Shown here piece after piece: positions 2,823 through 23,286 of a stretch of 23,286 bases of DNA (positions are counted from its first letter, which is position 1; each line of letters begins with the position of its first letter). A program made the translations under genes and the position numbers. The DNA is taken from contig FN649743.1 of the NCBI GenBank assembly GCA_000310025.1, positions 2,326,362 to 2,349,647 on the forward strand, in the 5' to 3' direction. Below the pieces are notes generated by a model, which saw nothing but the letters and a program-made list of their open reading frames with translations, made no database searches and was not told the origin of the DNA. Origin of the DNA: Ectocarpus siliculosus (Eukaryota; Sar; Phaeophyceae; Ectocarpales; Ectocarpaceae).

Positions 2823-4747
2823 CTTACCCATCCTCAGAGGCGGACGCTATCCTCAAGCCCAGGTGACGCGGCGCGAACTTGACGTCCACGACGCCGTAGC
2901 GGCTGTCCTTCAGGGTGGTCGCGACTATCCAGCGCGCCGGCGCCCCTCTCGACAGCCCGATCCCGCTTCGCTCTTGCCCGGGGGCAGCCTCGCTGTGTTC
3001 CTCCTGTGTTGTGATTTTTTGGTTGATTTTTTTCGGGTCATGGTTAGCCCATGGCCAAGACAACAGCCGGCGCTGACAAACCGGGGAACAAGAGCAGCGC
3101 GTCATTGCGGGCATGCACAGATTGAAGCAGCAGCGTGCATCCCCCCCCTCTCCCCCCAAGGAATCCATACATAGCTTGAGCCTCACGTTCGGATTTACGG
3201 CGGAGTACAGTCGTCGCCACGTCTTAGCTCTATTCGAGGCTTGTTCCACCCCAACTTTAACACGACTAGAAAACACAAACAGCGGCAGTCAGCACAGCCC
3301 AAAGAGCTGCACCGGGGGGTGTCTGTCCCTCCGAGCCCAAAGAGCGTGCCGCTTTCATCCGAACGGGTGGGTGGATTCTGACCCGGTCCGACGGTTAAGC
3401 ACAGTGATAGTCCCGCATCGTTCCCAACCGCAGAGCCACCCACCCATATCTTGACGGTTCTATCCTGCGAGCACGTCGCCAGAAGCTGCTTCCCGAAGCC
3501 GGGATGCGCCCAATCCACCTTCCAAAGGGTACCCTGTCGATTGATCCAACAACAACGCATACGCCGACACGGGTTCACGCGTCCAGGTCAGTCGTGATCA
3601 ACACGCCAATTGGTGCGACACGATTCGAAAGGTGGAGACAGAAGACATGGGGTGTAATGACTACATAGCCGGCGGCGACACAGGCGAACAAACAAAAATA
3701 TATCACCAGGCACACAGTTTGGTACAAGGCACGTTCTGGCGCGGCGGACTCTACGAAGGCTGCCGTCGGTGTTGCTGCACCCTAAATCGTCATCCGGCCG
3801 ACAGAAATGAAACATGAAAAGCTATACAGTTTGAGAGTTAGAATTAAATTGCCAACAAGTATTTGATGTTTGAGTATTTCACCTTTACAATAGCCTGTGT
3901 CTTGTGCCTCCACGCCGACCGTAAGCTATGTAGACTACATGAACCAGGGGGGGGGGCTGGATCTCAAGTGTTGGATGACATCAGCACTTTGTGAGCCAGT
4001 TTGAGCAGAGGCGTGACGAACAAATGTGAAGTACGTCCAGGAAAGCATGGAGAGTGGTACTCGACAGCCAGGCAACGCTTTGATGATTACACGGCCGCGG
4101 TATACTTGATAAGTAATACGCTTGTAAATAGGGGCATCCAGCCATCGCTTGGTTCCCTTCATTATGTGCTGTACCACCTTTGGCGAACATGCGATGATTC
4201 GGTTATTCCGCTGGGCGACTACCGTGCTGTACTCAAAAGCATGCGTGCAATGGTACAGTGCAGCAGTCCGTCCTTCTCCACCACGATCCCGGCACACACA
4301 CCGCGCACCCACTGACTACAATACTGGGAGGGGGAGGAGGAGGAGGAGGAGGAGGAGGACCGATGCCGTCGGCGGGAAAGCATGAACATGTCAACATGTT
4401 CCAATAGCCGCTGTGTGCGGGAAGAGTCGCGTGATGATCTTCGTCCAATATCCCGACTCTAATTCTCTGTGTGCAACAACAACCACTCTTTTGGGAGCTG
4501 CAAAGCCCAACGTGTGTGTACGTACAACCGCGTCGGGTCTCCTCATCACCTGATGCGCCGGCTTGATCTCGCAGCCTTCTTCGACGCACCAGACGCCGTT
4601 GTCGTCGAGATCCCGTATTCGAATCACACCGTCTGCCGACACCGAGGCTAGTCGTCTGCCGTGGTAGTCGTACGCCAAGTCCGTGACGATACTATCGCTC
4701 TGATCGTCCACAAACTCAAGCACAGGGCAAGACGCCGGCATCGCCAT
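1..4747 (-). CDS. SEH1: Nucleoporin SEH1 homologue (WD40 repeat), 5' part, cut by the window edge
   Basis: Five coding exons join in frame with GT-AG introns: 4747-4550, 3533-3444, 3003-2828, 2192-2021 and 935-873 (junction phases 0, 0, 2, 0, then 0 into the next intron). They encode 233 residues. The protein shows the SEH1 pattern: a first WD blade with DLAYDYHGRRLASVSADG (about 23-40), then LWKVDWAHPGFGKQ (69-82), CSQDRTVKIW (87-96), DVKFAPRHLGLRIASASEDG (about 136-155), HVRVYKATDL (156-165) and a piece ending GKWSKVLDLP. These match animal SEH1 blade by blade. SEH1 is about 350-360 residues, so roughly the last third is missing. No matching exon is visible between 1 and 872, which must be intron 5. 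Known role of the family: Y-complex (Nup107-160) scaffold of the nuclear pore and GATOR2 subunit in TORC1 signalling. The start at 4747 was chosen by family alignment; the frame stays open upstream to an ATG at 4882, and 4741 is also possible. Introns 1-4 are 1016, 440, 635 and 1085 bp. Confidence 0.9.
51..71. repeat. Homopolymer run C21
   Basis: Twenty-one consecutive C on the plus strand, inside intron 5 of the SEH1 gene (G run in the transcript). The rest of positions 1-872 holds no exon I can recognise and no other element. Confidence 0.9.
980..994. repeat. Homopolymer run G15 in SEH1 intron 4
   Basis: Fifteen G on the plus strand, read as a C tract in the SEH1 transcript about 45 nt upstream of the exon 5 acceptor (CGGCAG, exon starting at 935). 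It may form part of an unusually C-rich pyrimidine tract. Confidence 0.85.
1446..1495 (-). pseudogene. tRNA-like relic with A and B boxes, no anticodon arm
   Basis: On the minus strand TAGCCTAGTGG (1488-1478) fits the pol III A box and GGTTCGAATCC (1466-1456) fits the B box exactly. Only 11 nt separate them, so there is no room for an anticodon stem-loop. The flanking 7-mers do not pair as an acceptor stem, and only three T-stem pairs form. It is therefore a deleted tRNA pseudogene or the head of a tRNA-derived SINE rather than a working tRNA. It lies antisense-neutral inside SEH1 intron 4, on the same strand as that gene. Confidence 0.6.
2268..2293. repeat. G-rich tract in SEH1 intron 3, G-quadruplex capable
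   Basis: Four G runs of 4-5 bases separated by 1-3 bases on the plus strand, with the pattern GGGGAGGGGGTAGGGGAGGG. In the SEH1 transcript this is a C-rich tract about 75 nt before the exon 4 acceptor. Confidence 0.7.
2764..2819. repeat. (TC)28 dinucleotide microsatellite
   Basis: An uninterrupted TC array of 56 bp. Read along the SEH1 transcript it is (GA)28 beginning about eight bases after the 5' splice site of intron 3 (GTAAGACT at 2827-2820). Confidence 0.97.
4327..4359. repeat. GGA trinucleotide microsatellite
   Basis: GGGAGGGGGAGG followed by repeated AGG units in intron 1 of the SEH1 gene. The rest of that 1-kb intron (3534-4549) shows nothing recognisable apart from a G10 run at 3947-3956. 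Confidence 0.9.
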
Positions 4748-5275
4748 CGCCACTGCCAGCCAGCACAGCGGTGTCACGAGCTTTGTGTGTGTGCCTGTCG
4801 CAACACGCTTCGACTTGCTTGTACACACAGCTGTACAGCAGCGGAGGGGTTCCGCGAACATGAAAAATGGGGGGGGGGGCATGCCGGGTGCGTACTCTCC
4901 CTGTTCCTATCAGCAGCTGGGCGTTCGTGTGCGAGGTTGCCTTCTCAGTATCTGGTATACGTCTCCAACGAAGCGTACCGATCAGCCAGACCTTCCCCCT
5001 ATGTGAGTGCGCTTGTTCTTCTCTTTTCCGTAGTGCCTAGCTTGCGCTGTTGGTTTCCAAGGTACGGTGTTCGTGGTTCTTCCATCATGGTACGGCTTTG
5101 CACCAAACACTCCATTTTCCGGCAACAACACCCCACTCACACGCACGCTTCGCGCTCCCTGCTGCCGAGACCTCAACAGACAACAACACCTCCGGCGCCC
5201 CAAGAGTCTTGGACAAGACCCTTTAATAACGATCTACCCTTACTGTGCTTCTCGCGGCAGCGGAAAACTATCACC
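4748..5275. promoter_or_regulatory. Divergent intergenic region between SEH1 and the CBS-pair gene
   Basis: The two start codons face away from each other, 528 bp apart, so this stretch must hold both 5' UTRs and both promoters. I see no clear TATA box or named motif. It contains a G11 run at 4869-4879. The frame upstream of the CBS gene start has no stop for several hundred bases, but the residues it encodes look random, as expected in GC-rich DNA. Promoter activity is inferred from gene orientation only. Confidence 0.5.
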
Positions 5276-8200
5276 ATGATCCGCAACGTCGTGAGAGCGG
5301 TTGGGGGACGAGCGTCGTTGAAGGTGGCGGCAGGAGCACCAGCACAGCAGGTCCCTGCGGCAGCAAGAGCTACCGCCACTGCGCAAGGGGTGCGAGCGGC
5401 GTCCGCGTGTCTGGGCAGGGAAGTGCGGAGTTTCAGCGACGCTGCCGCGCCTGCTGCCGATGGTGAGCCCTCGTTTTCTTGACACCACGTTTGTGTGATA
5501 TTTTTCATCTCTCTCTTTTCTCCTAAGGCACACATACATGCAAGCAAAGTGCCGCCATGCTTCACACGAAAAGGCGGTGCAACAGCCGGGTAGGTGCTGG
5601 GGTGGGTTTCCCGGCCGGAGAGCACCGCGCTACTACACGGCCGAGAGGCGGCAGCATGGCGTGGGCGTACGCTCGGCGGGCACGTGTTGCAGCGATATCC
5701 CCGCAGGAGACACATGTCAACCAAGTTGCCGGAATATTATGCTCTCCTACATATGTAGTCTATGTACAAATGCTGCGTAGCCTCGAATTTTTGCTCTTTC
5801 GGCGTGTAGCTGCCGTTTACTGGTAGGAGGCTGTAAGCACATGTGCATAGATACACGCATCGTTGCGCGAGTGTTCCCGGCGAGCTGGGGGACCCGAAAG
5901 CCGATCAGTGCTCGGGTGTCACGCAAATGTATTTATCGTCTGGATTGCCTCCGATGCTGTTGCACCTTTTGTCGATTCCTGTTGTGAGGGGGGGCGGGCT
6001 CTTTGTGCGGGGGGTACCATCCCACTGCGGATCAAGTACTTGAGGTGGCCGCGTCACGATTTCACGATCAGAGGGATGCGATGGCTTGTTGACACCACGT
6101 TAGTTGTTCTAGGACCCAATGCTCTGTAGGTCTAAGGCGAGACGTCCTCAATGATATGAAAAATATGAAAAATTACGCAATATTTACGTGTAAAGCTTTC
6201 TATATCGTGTCGCGTTCTCTCTCCCTGGCTTGGGCCACTTCCATTAACATCTCGTGGATGACCAGTCTTGTATTGCGTGTGGTTGCATCGGTTGCAGTGA
6301 GCAGATGGACGCCCGCTCAAGCGTACTCACGGCGAAAAACCCTCTGCTAGTACGGGCCTGGCAACAACCACCACGATGCCCGAGTTAACAAGCATCTTGC
6401 ATGCAGAAAACCGGTTGTATGCATAGTACTCCTCGGAGTATACTGCTACGTGATCACGGACGACGGTGGATGTTCCCTACGCCAATTTTTTGCCAACGCC
6501 GCCGTCGCTGCCCTCCTTCCCTGTCATTGTCATGGCTCTTGGACGCCCATTGATAACCAGATGTGCGCACGGCGCAGCACGCGTGGGAGAAGTCGTGCTA
6601 CTTCAACATCGACTACAAGATCGACGAGGCCTCCACGGTCTACGACGCCATCAGCAGAATGTCGGCCTACAACGTCGGCTGCCTCATCGTCACGAAGAAC
6701 GGGGTGGTAAGCCTGCGTCGGAAGGACTCACGGAGTCATCAAAGCGTTGGACTGTACAGCTATTAATAATGCTTTCGGATTGTCGTTCCCTGCCTTGATC
6801 GTAACTTTCTTAGCGTAGTTGTTGTGCTTCTTCGTCCTGTTTCGCGAGTCTCCACAGAGACACTTTCGAGTTGTTGCATTGATTCTAATTTTACCTTGAC
6901 TGGGATGTCCGGTGCGAAAAGAACCGCAGCAAGCAGTGCGTTTGAAAACCCGTGTTAAACTCATCGCATCAATAACTCAAAGCCTTCGTTGGAGTTTTTA
7001 CACACCAATTCGATTCGTATCGTGCCATCCCACTGGGTCTCGGGTTGTTGTTAATGCTCTGTGTGGTTCTTGCTTAGGTGGTTTTTCTGGCCCCTGCAGT
7101 CTGCATCATTGTCATTCTCAACGTAGACGGGAGAGCTTGGATGGACCCTCTCGACAATCCGAAGTGTGTCCTGATATGCACCCCCAACTGCTGTTGTATT
7201 GCAGTATTCCCTCACCCTCCTGGAGTCTACAGATGGCGTTGAACGGGTGGACACACATCAGCCAGGGGAGTTTCCGCGCCTGCTTTTCTAGTTCCAACCG
7301 TTGTCCTGGAAAGTTCCTGCGTGGCAAGGATTCGTGTGGTAGCGAACCTGGCAAAGGTTCTACGAGTCTTATAGGAACACTTGTGCGTGTGCGTCGGATG
7401 CGCTTGAATTTATTAAGGTGTCTGGCATCATCTCAGAGCGCGACTACGTCTGCAAGATCGCTCTGCTGGGCAAGGCTTCCAAGGACACCACGGTAAGACA
7501 CAAGCGCTACAATAGCACGCCGAAAGTCAACCGCATGCAGAGACTGCTGTGCCGTCGACAGCCAATCTTTCGATCAGCATCGGGGGTAGATAGCTTAAGA
7601 TAGACAGCGTAAGGCCGCGTCGGGATGGTCGTGACAGGTGGGGAATTTCCCGCAGACATCTCACGTCATACCTTTGGAATGTTTGGTTTGTTTGGCAAGA
7701 GAAATTGTGGGGTTTCTCATTGTTGAGGGATCCGTGGCAGCAGAAGTTTCGTCGCTCCCGTCGCGTGTGTTTTTTTTGTGTGGCCCCGTCGTCGGTGGCG
7801 GTAAACGTGGTGGCATGCCAACGCAAACACCATTTTCGTTGCATACCTTGATTTTCAACATGACATTTTTATCCAAGCATGCTCGAGTAGGCGACACCAA
7901 CAGCAGCAACAGGAGTGGTCATTGTCGTGTTATTTTTTTTTGCACGTGCGGGGTCCAGGTTAAGGAGATTTGCACCCGGGGCCCCAAGATGGTGGCTGCG
8001 GCACGTTCGGACACGATCGAGGCGTGCGTGAAGAAGATGATCGCCGCTGACGTGCGCCACCTGCCCGTCATCGACGACGACACGGGCGAAGTCTTCGGCC
8101 TCATCTCCGTCAAGGCAAGTCGACAAAAAACATCTTTTTTGTGATCACTCTTTCCCGGTGTGTTTTTTGGCCTCTTCTTGTCCGACGTCTCTTCTTTCAT

Positions 8201-13940: not shown

Positions 13941-16900
13941 TCAGCGAGAGTGACGGCTCCTGCTGCGGCTGCCCGGCAAGAAAAGCCAACAGAGAAATTC
14001 GGTTCCGGACGAAGCACGCAAAGAACGTGATTTGAGGGTTAGCTGGTCATGAGTCCTCCAAAATCAACATGCATCGTCCGCACTTCGCGTCTTCTACTAC
14101 CCATGTACTCACTCCTATAACTGGAGAGGCGACAACCAAAGTCGTGGTATGAGTACGTGGATGAAACTCGAAAACACACTCACCTGTGGCGGGCGGGAGA
14201 GCGGCTACGGCTGCGGCTGTAGTCGCGGGCGCGCCCCCGCCCCCGTCCCCGGTCATCGGGCGACGGCGACCGCTCGCGCCGGCGGGCGGGCGGGGAGCGG
14301 GAGCGGGAGTAGCTGCGGGAGCGGCGGCGGGATCGGGAGCGGCTGCGGGAGCGGCTGCGAGAGCGGCTGTCGCGACCGCTGTTCTCCTGCGCGGCATACG
14401 CACGAAATTCAAGAAGTGATGGCAAAAATCAGGTTTGGGAGGAGACAACAACGTGCCGCAGGGTAGAAGGACAACGTGTTGTTCTATGATCTTTTCCTGC
14501 AAGGGTACATGGGTGATGCGAAAAAAAGCAACGTTTTGTAGAGGCAAATAGTGCGGCAGGGCTGAAGGACGGGGTGATAAATTGCGATAACCAAAACTTT
14601 GGGGTTCAACCAAGGTGGTTGAAAGCTACATGCTAGGGTGCAAGGCATCATGCATGCTCACCAAGCTCTCTCCTTCTTCAACAACATAAAACTACACGGA
14701 AGAATCCTCTCACGCTGCCTCCCCGTACGGGCAAAGCAGTCCAGCACGCTTGTCTCTGCGCACACAACCCGCCGCGCTGCTTCCCTAGAGCAAGAAGTCT
14801 CTACTAAACACGCGCTCCCTTCGTCTTGTTGTCGGCGATGTGCTGCACGGATCGTGGATCTCACCTCCCTCACGCGGATGTACTTCCCGCCGAGTCGTGT
14901 GTCGTCAAGGGTGCGGATGGCCGCCTTCATGTCGTCCCGTGACACGTACTCCACAACCCCTGAGAGAGGCAGGCCATCATAGTGCAGATGGATGAATCAC
15001 GGGACGGGACAGATGGGCCATGGGACGGGACGAATAAGATCACGGGGCGCAATGCAACGAATTTTCAGCGCGGCGTGCATTTCACGCCTCATCGAGAGCT
15101 GCTTTTGTGTGCGCACCTTGTAGCTTGTTAAAAAGACAGGATACAACCGACAGAGCTAGGAAGGTCCTCGGCAAGCTGTAACTTCATCTACGAAATACAT
15201 GAAAACCTCTCGGGGTGCTATCATGTACGTACCTGGCAGGCGTCAGCGTCCTGCACCGACCAGGTTCTTCGAATCAGTCACCATTTTACCGCAGCGGCTA
15301 GAAAAGTTGCCAGAAACAAGGGTCGGTCCTGGGAGGCGTTCACTCACGAACGATATTATCTACAGAGGTGCATCCGACGCCCTCAAACCGTCACTTACGG
15401 ACGGCACGGTATGGTGCGCCGCTCATCTCGGCGGAAAAGATCGGGAAAACTCACGTCAGTAACTAGGGAGATAGATCCCATCCAGGACTCTCAGTCAACA
15501 CAAATATTGACAAAAAAAAAATAGTTTTTTGAGTGACACTGAACCAACCCACAACAACCCTGCCTCTTTAATCTCGCTGCACACATACAGAAGCAGCAGT
15601 CCCGATCCTTCACCAACGCAGCAAAAAGCTACCTACCCACGAACTCGGTTCACAATAAAACAAAACCCGCGTGCGCTGTACGCCCACGTGTCCAGAAAGC
15701 CACTTACCCCAGCGGCGGCCTTGTCGGAAGAAGACATCGCTGTAGAGCACCTGGCCTGCCTGCCGCCCGAAGTCCTGAGAGACATCGCGTCGGCGGGGAT
15801 CGTTTGCGAAGCGACGGCGAGAACGCGTTTCAGAGATCGTGACCAATATTTTTGTTGTTGTTGCGCTGAATAGGCCCGACACACACGGTCGCACGCCACT
15901 GACTTGTTTTCATTGGTCAGCCGGTTAGCGCGGTCGACGCAAATGGTACAAGGGAATAACCACAGCAAACACACGCGGGGAGTCACGCTTCCTGTGCACA
16001 AGCAGGCAGCAGCGGCGCTCGTCGCGAGAGCAGCAGCGCTTGTCGCGAGAGCAGCAGCGCTTGTCGCGAGCAAAGAGCCGCATTCTTGTACGCATGAACC
16101 CACCGAGAATGATATGCAAGGACACCCGCAGACGATAGATAATCACAACAATCGGCCTCGCTCTTCTTCCTGTCCGTCCCCGCTTACGACTTGGCGGGGG
16201 GAAAACAAAAAAAAATACAGCAGCATCGATCCCAGCAAGCAAAACCGACAAAAAACAAGATTATCTTGGACTCTCATCGGTGAATAGAGATGGATTTGTT
16301 GTGTACATGTAGAAAAAAAAAAAACACACGCACGTGTACACAGAGGATACACAACACCTACAGCCACCCACGAACACACGAACCAAAACACACACCTTGA
16401 GATCCTGCCAGCTGGTGTGGGAGTCAAGGCCCTCCACGGTGATGCGGTGCTCCGTGCGGCGGGTAGCGAACTTGGGGCCGTTGGGGCGGTGCCCGCGGCC
16501 GGGCTGGACGACGATGCGCGCACCGTCGAACTCGCGGCCGTCCATTTCTGCGGACAACAACACCGTCCGCGTCCCACAGGCAGCAGAGGTAGATTAGACA
16601 CACGGCTGGGTGGAGCCGTCGATGCAAAGGAAAGAAGCACGAGCACACCAATCGTACGAGGCACACCCTACTAAGTATCGGCTCGTCCGTTGGTACGGAA
16701 GCTACGCCCTTGTTCTGAACGTTTTGGTACGAGCGGGTGCTACCCATCTTTCACGTGCGCCACGCCTCCCCGAACTTCATCTCCAGCGTTTACCGCTGGT
16801 GGAGGGCAACAGCTGCCCTGCTCTGCGGTGCGGGACAAAGCACCGAATGTTGCTGAGGCTGATGCTGGTTCGCAACGTTCATGTCGGAGTCGCTAGACTC

Positions 16901-19399: not shown

Positions 19400-20280
19400 A
19401 TTTGTCGGTTGGAGGCTAGGGCTTGCTCGTTCTGTCGTTCCCTCTGTCAGCTGCAGGCTGGGTGGTATCAGCGTTTGTCAGCGGGTGCACAGGTCGGTCC
19501 GTCGGTTGTGTGTGTTGCCGTCCGTCCCGGTTTTGCTGGTGTCCCGGTGGCTGGGTGAGGCGGGGCACTTTTTATATTGTCCTGTTTGCGAGCCCCCTCG
19601 CAGGATCTCTAGGCCCTGTGACTGTGTGCCTGTTGGCTAGTCGTTCACAACGAGGTGCACCTCCAAGATGAAGGTATCCCGCGATGCGTATGTCTTATGT
19701 CTAAGGTTTCGCTTGATGGAGTTGAGCTTGTGTAGATCAGTAGGAAAACTCGTCACCACGCCGGACAATACCGCCCTACCTTTTATTGCGCCACGAGATG
19801 GTGCAAATTTGCACCACGGTGGGGGGGCGGCTGCCAGATGATGCTGGAGGAACAGACTACGTTGCACTCTGCGCTTGTGGACGCATGGTCGAGCCGTTCA
19901 TCCAGTGCGGATCCCAATGACCCAATTGCATCGGGTGGTGGTGCACACAAAGCAGATGTTGGATACGTAGACTACAGCAGTATCCCTCCGCACTTTTCAA
20001 ATATGTCTGGGAAATCGTAGACATACAGGTACTTTTCTGACGCTATGAATCCATTGCTAATTTGTCTCAGACTCTTTTCTACGATGGAGATGGCTCCGTG
20101 GTGTCATATTAAGAAAAATAAAAAAATATGTACGCCGCCATTCCTGTTTTTCCCACCCACATGCCCGGAAATCCAGGCCGGAGCATTAGCGAGAGTGTCA
20201 TCCGCTGCCATCATACTGCTTTCCTCCTCCAGTTGCGGCTGACACGGTTGTACGGAGGGCTTGGTCGCTCGTCTTTCGCG
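19400..20280. promoter_or_regulatory. Divergent intergenic region between the SR gene and the SPRING-family gene
   Basis: Start codons point away from each other with 881 bp between them, so both promoters and 5' UTRs should be here. No TATA box or named element was recognised. An in-frame stop-free stretch reaches upstream from the plus-strand gene to 20128, but the residues it would add do not look conserved. The regulatory role is inferred from position only. Confidence 0.45.
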
Positions 20281-21277
20281 ATGGACGCTACCCCTCGTTT
20301 CCGGCTGTTCGACAACCGCCGGGGGAGCAGCATCAACCAGATGGACGAAGAAGCAGGTCGTCAGACGGCGACGACCCTGCCCCGCCGGCGCACACTTATT
20401 ACCTCCTCCGTCGCCGTCGCAAGGCAGCGAAGGCGGAACCGGAGGAGGCCCGGCGCCCGCCGAGGCCTAGCGGCTCTCGTCCCGCGACTGCTGGCTTCTT
20501 CCGTCTCTAGTAGAGCAAGCCGGCGCCGAGCGCTGCTGCTCCTGCTGGTGCTCGCGGCGTGCGGCGCCGGGGTGCTCGCGAGCGCTCGGCTGCTGGCCCG
20601 GGCGTCGTCGTCGCATTCGTCCTGGCCGTCCTCGTCGTCCGCGCCAGGATACTTGCATTCTTCCGGCGCAGGCTCCGCTGATAGAGACGACGACGATGGT
20701 GATGATGATAATGATGATGCCGATCGCCATAAGCACCGCCGCCCCGCCGTGAGTCTCGGCCCAGACGCGATCCCTTCCGTGCTGCTGGTAGAGCGAGGGC
20801 CGTCAGGCTTGCCGTCTGGACCGGCGCTGCCCGGCGGCGCGCGGAAAGCGAGCAGCCTTGTTGATCCGGCGGGCGCCGTGCCAGGCGGCGGCGGAGGCGA
20901 GACTCGGGGGGGGAGGGGGCGAGAGAACAGTAGTAATCCCTACCGGTGTCGAAACACCGTTCAGGGGGCTACGCTCGTGGCGGACTCGGAAGGGAGGGTG
21001 TGTCACCGTGCGGAGCTAGTAGTAGAGGAAGGCGACGATGATGATGTCCGCCACCGCCCGGGGTGTTGCGCCGCGCGCCCGCCAGCGCTGCCGCTGCTTC
21101 CGCCGCGCGACGGCGGCGGCGGCGGCGATCTCGCCGCCAGTTCTCCTCCTGCGGCTGACGACAAGCACAAGCGTCCTCCCGCGGCGACACGTTCCGTCCC
21201 GACGACGACATCAACGGAGACCCGCCGCGGGGGAGAGGGAGTGGTGGTCGTGGAGCTGGCGGCTCTGGCGCACGGCA

Positions 21278-21317
<40 letters not shown>

Positions 21318-21933
21318 GGGGGGGGTTCCACCGGAAGAGGCCCTGTCGACGCCATTCTCGTGCTGGAGCTGCGACGTGGGAGAAGACGGCCCCTCCGGGA
21401 GCAACGGCGGCGGCAACGACAGCCCTTCTTTCTCATCGTGCTGCAGCTCGTACGAGTTTTGTGTGTCGTGCTGCCAGAACCCCCAGCGGGGGGAGGAGCG
21501 GGAGGCCATCCAGGCGTCAGCCGCGCTCTCGGGACACCCGGCCTATCGCGACCTCCTAGGGTCCGGTAACAACGACGCGGCGAACGGGAGAGAACCCCCG
21601 CCCCCGCGTCAACTCCGGGCTTCGGCTGCGGCGGCGGAAGCAGGAGGAGTTGAAAAAAACGGCCAACAAGTGGAAGCAGAAGAACGCGACGCGCGAGAAT
21701 TGGCCTTCGCCCACTGCGCCTTCAGATGTCGGACCTACTCCGGAAGCGTCGCGCACGAGAACTCTTACCGCAGCCCGCTCAAGCACTGCTTCGGGAGGTT
21801 CCGCCCTCCAGCTGCATCAGCAGCGGCGGCTGCGTTGCCCGGGGGATGGGGTGGGGTGGTAGAGGGCGGGGAGAGCCGAGGCGCGCCGCCACTCCAGTTG
21901 GACCCTCTTCTTTTTGCCTTGGCGGAGCCATGA
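20281..21933 (+). CDS. SPRING/C12orf49-family (SREBP-regulating gene) type II membrane protein
   Basis: A single open exon of 550 residues ending in TGA. Arg-rich residues 45-83 precede one hydrophobic segment (about 84-106, ALLLLLVLAACGAGVLASAR), giving a short cytosolic tail and a long luminal part. The luminal part carries the family's cysteine landmarks in order: YRCRNTVQG (221-229), SEGRVCHRAEL (236-246), CC (262-263), FSCWSC (359-364), CCSSYEFCVSCC (387-398), HCAFRCRTYS (478-487), then SVAHENSYRSPLKHCFG (489-505). These match human SPRING nearly motif for motif. SPRING is a Golgi/ER protein that aids site-1 protease (MBTPS1) maturation and so SREBP processing. The human protein is about 205 residues; the extra length here is Asp-, Gly-, Pro- and Ala-rich low-complexity sequence, mainly 107-220, 265-358 and 400-470. 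The start at 20281 is the first Met after unconvincing sequence; 20341 is an alternative. Whether a site-1 protease or SREBP is the partner in this organism is unknown. Confidence 0.88.
21273..21326. repeat. (GGC)n trinucleotide run coding for poly-glycine
   Basis: GGC units followed by a G10 run encode about 15 consecutive Gly at residues 334-348 of the SPRING-family protein. Length variation here would normally stay in frame in the GGC part, but slippage in the G10 run would shift the frame. Confidence 0.9.

Positions 21934-23180: not shown

Positions 23181-23184
<4 letters not shown>
21934..23184. other. 3' flank of the SPRING-family gene, no gene seen
   Basis: The stretch begins with the 3' UTR of the plus-strand gene. 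Open frames are short (at most about 120 codons) and show no recognisable domain. A small perfect hairpin, CACGATT-GCG-AATCGTG, lies at about 22881-22897, without a T run after it. No polyadenylation signal could be fixed with confidence. Confidence 0.55.
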
Positions 23185-23253
<69 letters not shown>

Positions 23254-23286
23254 TACATATCTCTCTCTCTCTCTCTCTCTCTCTCT
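23185..23286. repeat. (CT)n microsatellite running off the window end
   Basis: A CT array of about 64 bp, an interruption CCTCATACATAT, then a further CT array to the window end, so its true length is unknown. Its complement gives a meaningless Arg-Glu repeat frame. Confidence 0.97.

Follow-up and report, generated by a model that had tools for sequence, protein, structure and literature searches.

A SPRING-family protein in the brown alga Ectocarpus siliculosus and its possible pairing with site-1 protease apart from SREBP control

What would SPRING (C12orf49), a Golgi protein studied in animals as a cofactor of site-1 protease (S1P), the protease that governs cholesterol genes, in SREBP activation, be doing in a lineage where SREBP control is not established? 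The question is raised by one reading frame in a 23,286-nucleotide stretch of Ectocarpus siliculosus DNA (the window), which an earlier sequence-only reading assigned to the SPRING family in a probable brown alga, proposing for the protein a role older than SREBP control. The window is internal to a 4.59-Mb contig (C18) of the genome searched here (189,456,909 bases, 492 contigs). That genome contains at least 150 matches to the EsV-1-7 family (150 of 150 scored, among 880 candidates), in agreement with the proposed origin. EsV-1-7 is described in passages of PMC7457493 as expanded in brown algae, patchy in other eukaryotes and also found in viruses; it is the number of matches, not their occurrence as such, that makes the marker strong.

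The frame runs uninterrupted for 550 residues on the + strand, from an ATG at 20281 to a stop codon ending at 21933, and its product is a member of the SPRING family. In a Pfam-A comparison listed to E 1, the SPRING1 family PF10218 was the sole match, with E = 1.8e-20 and 73.8 bits over three stretches (family cut-off, 22 bits). The SPRING/DUF2054 profile check suggested earlier thus gave a significant match, and the four signatures on which the assignment had been based (CRNTVQG, RVCHRAEL, CCSSYEFCVSCC and RTYSGSVAHENSYRSPL) follow one another in the translation in that order. The best solved relative was human SPRING (8uw8_B, E = 8.1e-11), identical at 46 of 90 residues over three aligned pieces by hand count in the PDB alignment; the remaining 34 of the 35 PDB rows lay within residues 296–428, around a glycine-rich insert, none with E below 0.0057. 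NCBIfam gave no match for the protein. When the whole genome was searched in six frames with PF10218, two stretches of this locus scored 31.2 and 30.6 bits, each above the cut-off, and no second SPRING locus was found at E 0.001 (5/5 candidates scored). Pattern scans, which detect close relatives only and for which several query peptides came from low-complexity stretches, gave 295 and 21 matches in viral contigs and 219 in prokaryote genomes, none encoding a SPRING relative. The features of the locus, in coordinates of the window, are as follows.

20281..21933, + strand: SPRING-like open reading frame, 550 amino acids, no intron needed (translation; Pfam PF10218 E 1.8e-20)
20530..20586, + strand: strongest hydrophobic segment, residues 84–102, the sole strong one; probable type II signal anchor (Kyte-Doolittle scan)
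20926..20934, + strand: N-glycosylation sequon NSS (N216), aligned with NSS at human residue 67
20947..21018, + strand: first CREST segment, CRNTVQG...VCHRAEL (PDB alignment to human SPRING)
20947-20967, + strand: signature CRNTVQG (translation)
20995-21018, + strand: signature RVCHRAEL (translation)
21007-21009, + strand: Arg243, aligned with human interface residue R95
21061..21069, + strand: GCC cysteine pair of the CREST region (translation)
21070..21360, + strand: low-complexity insert inside the CREST region, cysteine-free, with polyglycine at about 21280-21325 (translation)
21361..21474, + strand: cysteine cluster CWSC ... CCSSYEFCVSCC, the CCSSYEFCVSCC part within the printed human alignment
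21439-21474, + strand: signature CCSSYEFCVSCC (translation)
21475..21711, + strand: second low-complexity insert, cysteine-free (translation)
21712..21795, + strand: last CREST segment, HCAFRCRTYSGSVAHENSYRSPLKHCFG (PDB alignment and PF10218 genome match)
inside 21712-21795, + strand: signature RTYSGSVAHENSYRSPL (translation)
21730-21732, + strand: Arg484, aligned with human interface residue R174
21748-21750, + strand: Val490, aligned with human interface residue V180

The start codon is uncertain because the surrounding open stretch begins upstream, at 20122, and an in-frame ATG at 20128 is a possible alternative. The frame has a single GTRAG donor-like site, at 20749, and a different gene model may apply. 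Rfam and tRNA scans across the window returned nothing. Elsewhere in the window, two frames at 3198-4906 (− strand) appear to be exons of a WD40 protein (Pfam WD40 below cut-off, E 0.0072 and 0.00038) that by eye resembles a Seh1/Sec13-type propeller. Exons of a CBS-domain protein occupy 6557-8141 (+ strand), with Pfam CBS above cut-off for 7635-8141 (E 4.3e-7) and below it for 6557-6763. An Arg/Ser-rich frame at 14180-14428 and an RRM match at 14661-14996 (E 0.0014, below cut-off), both on the − strand, together span 14180-14996 and are perhaps an SR splicing factor. A long (CT)n tract closes the window at about 23184-23286.

The layout of the algal protein resembles that of human SPRING (C12ORF49/POST1; PF10218; 8uw8/9csd), with a basic N-terminus (22 Lys/Arg versus 5 Asp/Glu in residues 1–84) followed by one membrane anchor, an NSS sequon just before the domain, and CREST segments and cysteine clusters in the same order. 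Hydropathy fits a predicted type II single-pass membrane protein with a lumenal CREST domain. The human NSS that faces the algal sequon is, we assume, the human glycosylation site. Fourteen of the 15 algal cysteines lie C-terminal to the anchor, in groups at residues 223–263, 361–398 and 479–503. Ten of these 14 fall inside the pieces aligned to the human protein and four between pieces (262, 263, 361 and 364); the latter presumably have human counterparts, and the GCC pair, outside the printed alignment, is one that we take to be equivalent to a human GCC. The two long inserts hold no cysteines. These low-complexity inserts enlarge the protein and, with a longer N-terminus, account for its 550 residues against 205 in the human one. 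Human SPRING is likewise described with a type II anchor in sections of PMC12419022, and parts of PMC11231238 give its ectodomain 15 cysteines and seven predicted disulfides. The algal protein, unlike the human one, has 14 lumenal cysteines, an even number, so all of them could pair.

According to passages of PMC11231238, cleavage of human SPRING by S1P was lowered by SPRING R174A alone, by SPRING R95A jointly with S1P P317A, and by SPRING V180A jointly with S1P W556A. With human numbering taken from the construct (a 21-residue leader, then residue 36), R95, R174 and V180 correspond to chain positions 81, 160 and 166 and face algal R243, R484 and V490 in the PDB alignment, an identity at 3/3 positions. 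Since about half of the aligned positions are identical, such agreement is weak alone (about 1 in 8 by chance), and the apparent conservation of S1P-contact residues is supportive, not decisive. The human protein also carries an S1P cleavage motif, RNLL, between the anchor and the CREST domain; the algal one, unlike it, has no RX[LIV]X in residues 104–222, and the nearest instance, RLLA at 103, abuts the anchor. Because SPRING cleavage is reported in portions of PMC12419022 to be dispensable for SREBP signalling, the motif is not taken as family-defining.

S1P, the partner that had been proposed for the algal protein, is probably present in the genome, readable as one exon. An S1P protein query picked out an S1P-type catalytic exon at C30:1045691-1045846 (E = 5.6e-11, with 54% identity across 52 residues), the sole candidate scored. 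The 52-residue exon carries the Asp and His catalytic motifs and has the stretch NWTNEPTL..GHGT in common with human S1P (MBTPS1/SKI-1; plant SBT6.1 = SBT7). Against PDB, its translation matched human S1P (8uwc_A) at E 3e-13 and, as the next molecule, a bacterial subtilisin at 5.9e-6 (70 sequences matched); in this comparison it is closer to S1P than to other subtilases. From 367 bases past the match, contig C30 is N over 1046213-1062565 (16,353 bases), which is either a gap in the assembly or sequence that was withheld, so that the human interface residues of S1P, P317, N328 and W556, have no readable counterparts, and tblastn over 40 kb around the exon, N included, gave no further exon match better than E = 0.52. 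Unlike in known S1P, the pro-domain and fourth domain were not found: the domain models PF23001 and PF23090 had no match in the genome, a silence that proves little because 14 prokaryotic control genomes were equally silent. Passages of PMC6713707 report S1P as widespread across eukaryotes, and two matches to S1P are tabulated for the stramenopile Pythium insidiosum in part of PMC5841299.

The reach of these genome searches, which operate exon by exon, can be gauged from the same protease. A search with the subtilase family returned 8 matches among 19 candidates scored, none S1P-like by serine-motif context (8/8 inspected), and missed the C30 exon. This is a demonstrated false negative, and the silence of the genome searches is therefore given limited trust. 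With this in mind, we looked for the SREBP machinery. INSIG had 0 matches genome-wide (2 candidates scored). The HLH search gave 2 matches among 5 candidates (E 1.2e-5 and 0.06); the first is accompanied by PAS matches just under cut-off, and a PAS-like piece of the second had no score in Pfam. EKRYR, a signature of SREBPs, is absent from both HLH frames.

Eight of 20 candidates matched the Sterol-sensing domain, a Pfam model that spans NPC1 as well as SCAP, and all five pieces tested scored higher as Sterol-sensing than as Patched. Compared with PDB, two of three exons put NPC1L1 first, one of them also listing SCAP at E 0.017; the third ranked human SCAP (6.1e-4) slightly ahead of NPC1 (3.5e-3). 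All four loci holding this SCAP-like exon type encode GIGVDDM nearby, a motif that marks transporters of the Patched/NPC1 type and is not known from SCAP. Sterol-sensing exons that closely resemble one another and have a Patched/NPC1 look occur three times on C25 (two within 27 kb) and once on C9, which suggests an expanded family.

Five candidates for the site-2 protease family PF02163 yielded 4 matches, located at 3 places. As candidates for an animal-type site-2 protease these were rejected, since on inspection they look like plastid-type proteases: exons at two places match RseP of NCBIfam at 25.1 and 68.5 bits, far below its cut-off of 147.6, and the third place is one that we take to be EGY. 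The best hit in the genome for a human site-2 protease query had E = 5.1. The pattern HExGH[G/A] had 70 genome matches, versus 19 for a backward control; among the 45 viewed in context no site-2 protease was recognized by eye, and the remaining 25 contain precisely the pair of 17-mers belonging to a repeat met among those 45. That repeat, in which the 17-mers CACGAGATAGGCCATGG and CATGAGATCGGCCATGG lie inverted at a distance of about 55 bases, is found on many contigs and is possibly a mobile or satellite element.

In sum, SREBP, SCAP, INSIG and an animal-type site-2 protease were not detected by a method that had demonstrably missed the S1P exon. The setting appears to differ from the human one, and the searches speak against a full SREBP system, short of excluding one. 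Of the four components that the sequence-only reading had singled out for a genome check, MBTPS1 was recovered, as a single exon; MBTPS2 of animal type, SCAP and SREBP were not detected by these weak means.

We consider it probable, from homology and the S1P-type exon, that the algal protein is a SPRING orthologue that activates S1P on substrates other than SREBP. It would sit in the secretory pathway as a type II membrane protein; its CREST domain would bind S1P and, as in human, push the cleaved inhibitory pro-domain off the active site; S1P so freed could then cut other proteins, presumably non-SREBP clients of the secretory pathway. Both the binding and the displacement of the pro-domain are described for human SPRING in sections of PMC12419022 and PMC11231238, and PMC9468337 presents SPRING, in the part available, as an S1P maturation factor giving no substrate specificity. 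Plant S1P cuts bZIP17, bZIP28 and other proteins (passages of PMC6713707), which makes membrane-bound transcription factors of the kind cut in plants, or else proteins that are secreted or belong to the cell wall, the natural candidate clients; if site-2 protease is truly missing, secreted clients would be likelier. The arrangement has a functional analogue, with no relationship claimed, in 7B2, the PCSK2 helper, another helper needed by a pro-protein convertase (parts of PMC12419022).

Several observations count against S1P activation. Losing SPRING reportedly affects SREBP and nothing else in mouse liver or mammalian cells (sections of PMC12419022), which counts against a general S1P role. 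The large inserts splitting the CREST domain, the missing S1P cleavage motif and the silent models PF23001 and PF23090 would each count against it as well. Long inserts and an absent motif are what might be seen had the family member turned to another secretory protease or lumenal task and lost its contact with S1P, and the genome does offer other subtilases, with 8 matches among 19 candidates scored; the retained R243, R484 and V490, with an S1P-type exon in the same genome, stand against such a loss and leave it quite unlikely. It is also unlikely that SPRING does its animal job here within a complete but undetected SREBP-like system, comprising a divergent SREBP, SCAP, INSIG and site-2 protease. 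Exon-by-exon searches do miss things, as the absence of the S1P exon from the subtilase list illustrates, and one sterol-sensing exon ranks SCAP (6.1e-4) just above NPC1 (3.5e-3) while another lists SCAP weakly (0.017). But the four loci with the SCAP-like exon encode GIGVDDM, the two other exons rank NPC1L1 first, INSIG is silent for both candidates scored, neither of the two HLH matches among five candidates carries EKRYR (one stands at E 0.06, and the first is near the PAS cut-off), and no animal-type site-2 protease emerged by family, protein or pattern search.

A further alternative questions the frame itself. The region has 63–68% G+C, a composition in which long frames arise easily, the frame contains a polyglycine run, and third-position G+C (0.72, 0.72 and 0.63 in three frames) does not favour the SPRING frame, all as might be seen if the frame had arisen by chance, or had decayed, within repeat-rich DNA of high G+C. 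Such an origin, like animal contamination, is highly improbable for an uninterrupted frame with three family stretches at E 1.8e-20; contamination is further countered by the position of the window inside a 4.59-Mb contig and by the richness of the genome in EsV-1-7 repeats.

Activation of S1P on non-SREBP substrates thus remains the preferred reading. A broader proposal, which we put forward tentatively and rate a little below even, is that S1P activation by SPRING is an ancient eukaryotic function, older than SREBP–SCAP–INSIG and in brown algae independent of that system, and that the dedication to SREBP described in mammals came later, as a general chaperone for pro-domain release narrowed in scope. 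The results are consistent with the earlier idea of a role that preceded SREBP control, in that SPRING and an S1P exon were detected and SREBP, SCAP, INSIG and site-2 protease were not, the negative half coming from searches with a known false negative.

The algal protein adds a member to a family already known; the novelty would lie in its setting, SPRING and S1P without SREBP. No report of SPRING in algae was found among titles and abstract starts of the open-licence literature, although public protein databases may hold records, and the same literature yielded nothing on site-1 protease together with Ectocarpus. A term look-up in the accessible parts of PMC7048761, PMC8019017 and PMC10457316 returned nothing on SPRING distribution or conservation. 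Specificity is disputed: a review by the discoverers of SPRING holds, in the sections available, that S1P is licensed for SREBP only and that SPRING is dispensable for other mammalian S1P clients, while work on HeLa cells and zebrafish that it cites points the other way (PMC12419022). An S1P–SPRING pair in a lineage without SREBP machinery would, if true, bear on this dispute, since SPRING could then not have arisen for SREBP. It would also offer a natural setting in which to examine the general effect of SPRING on S1P, and would point to brown-algal S1P clients yet to be discovered. For the family, the algal sequence, a distant one, reveals positions at which the CREST domain can accommodate inserts.
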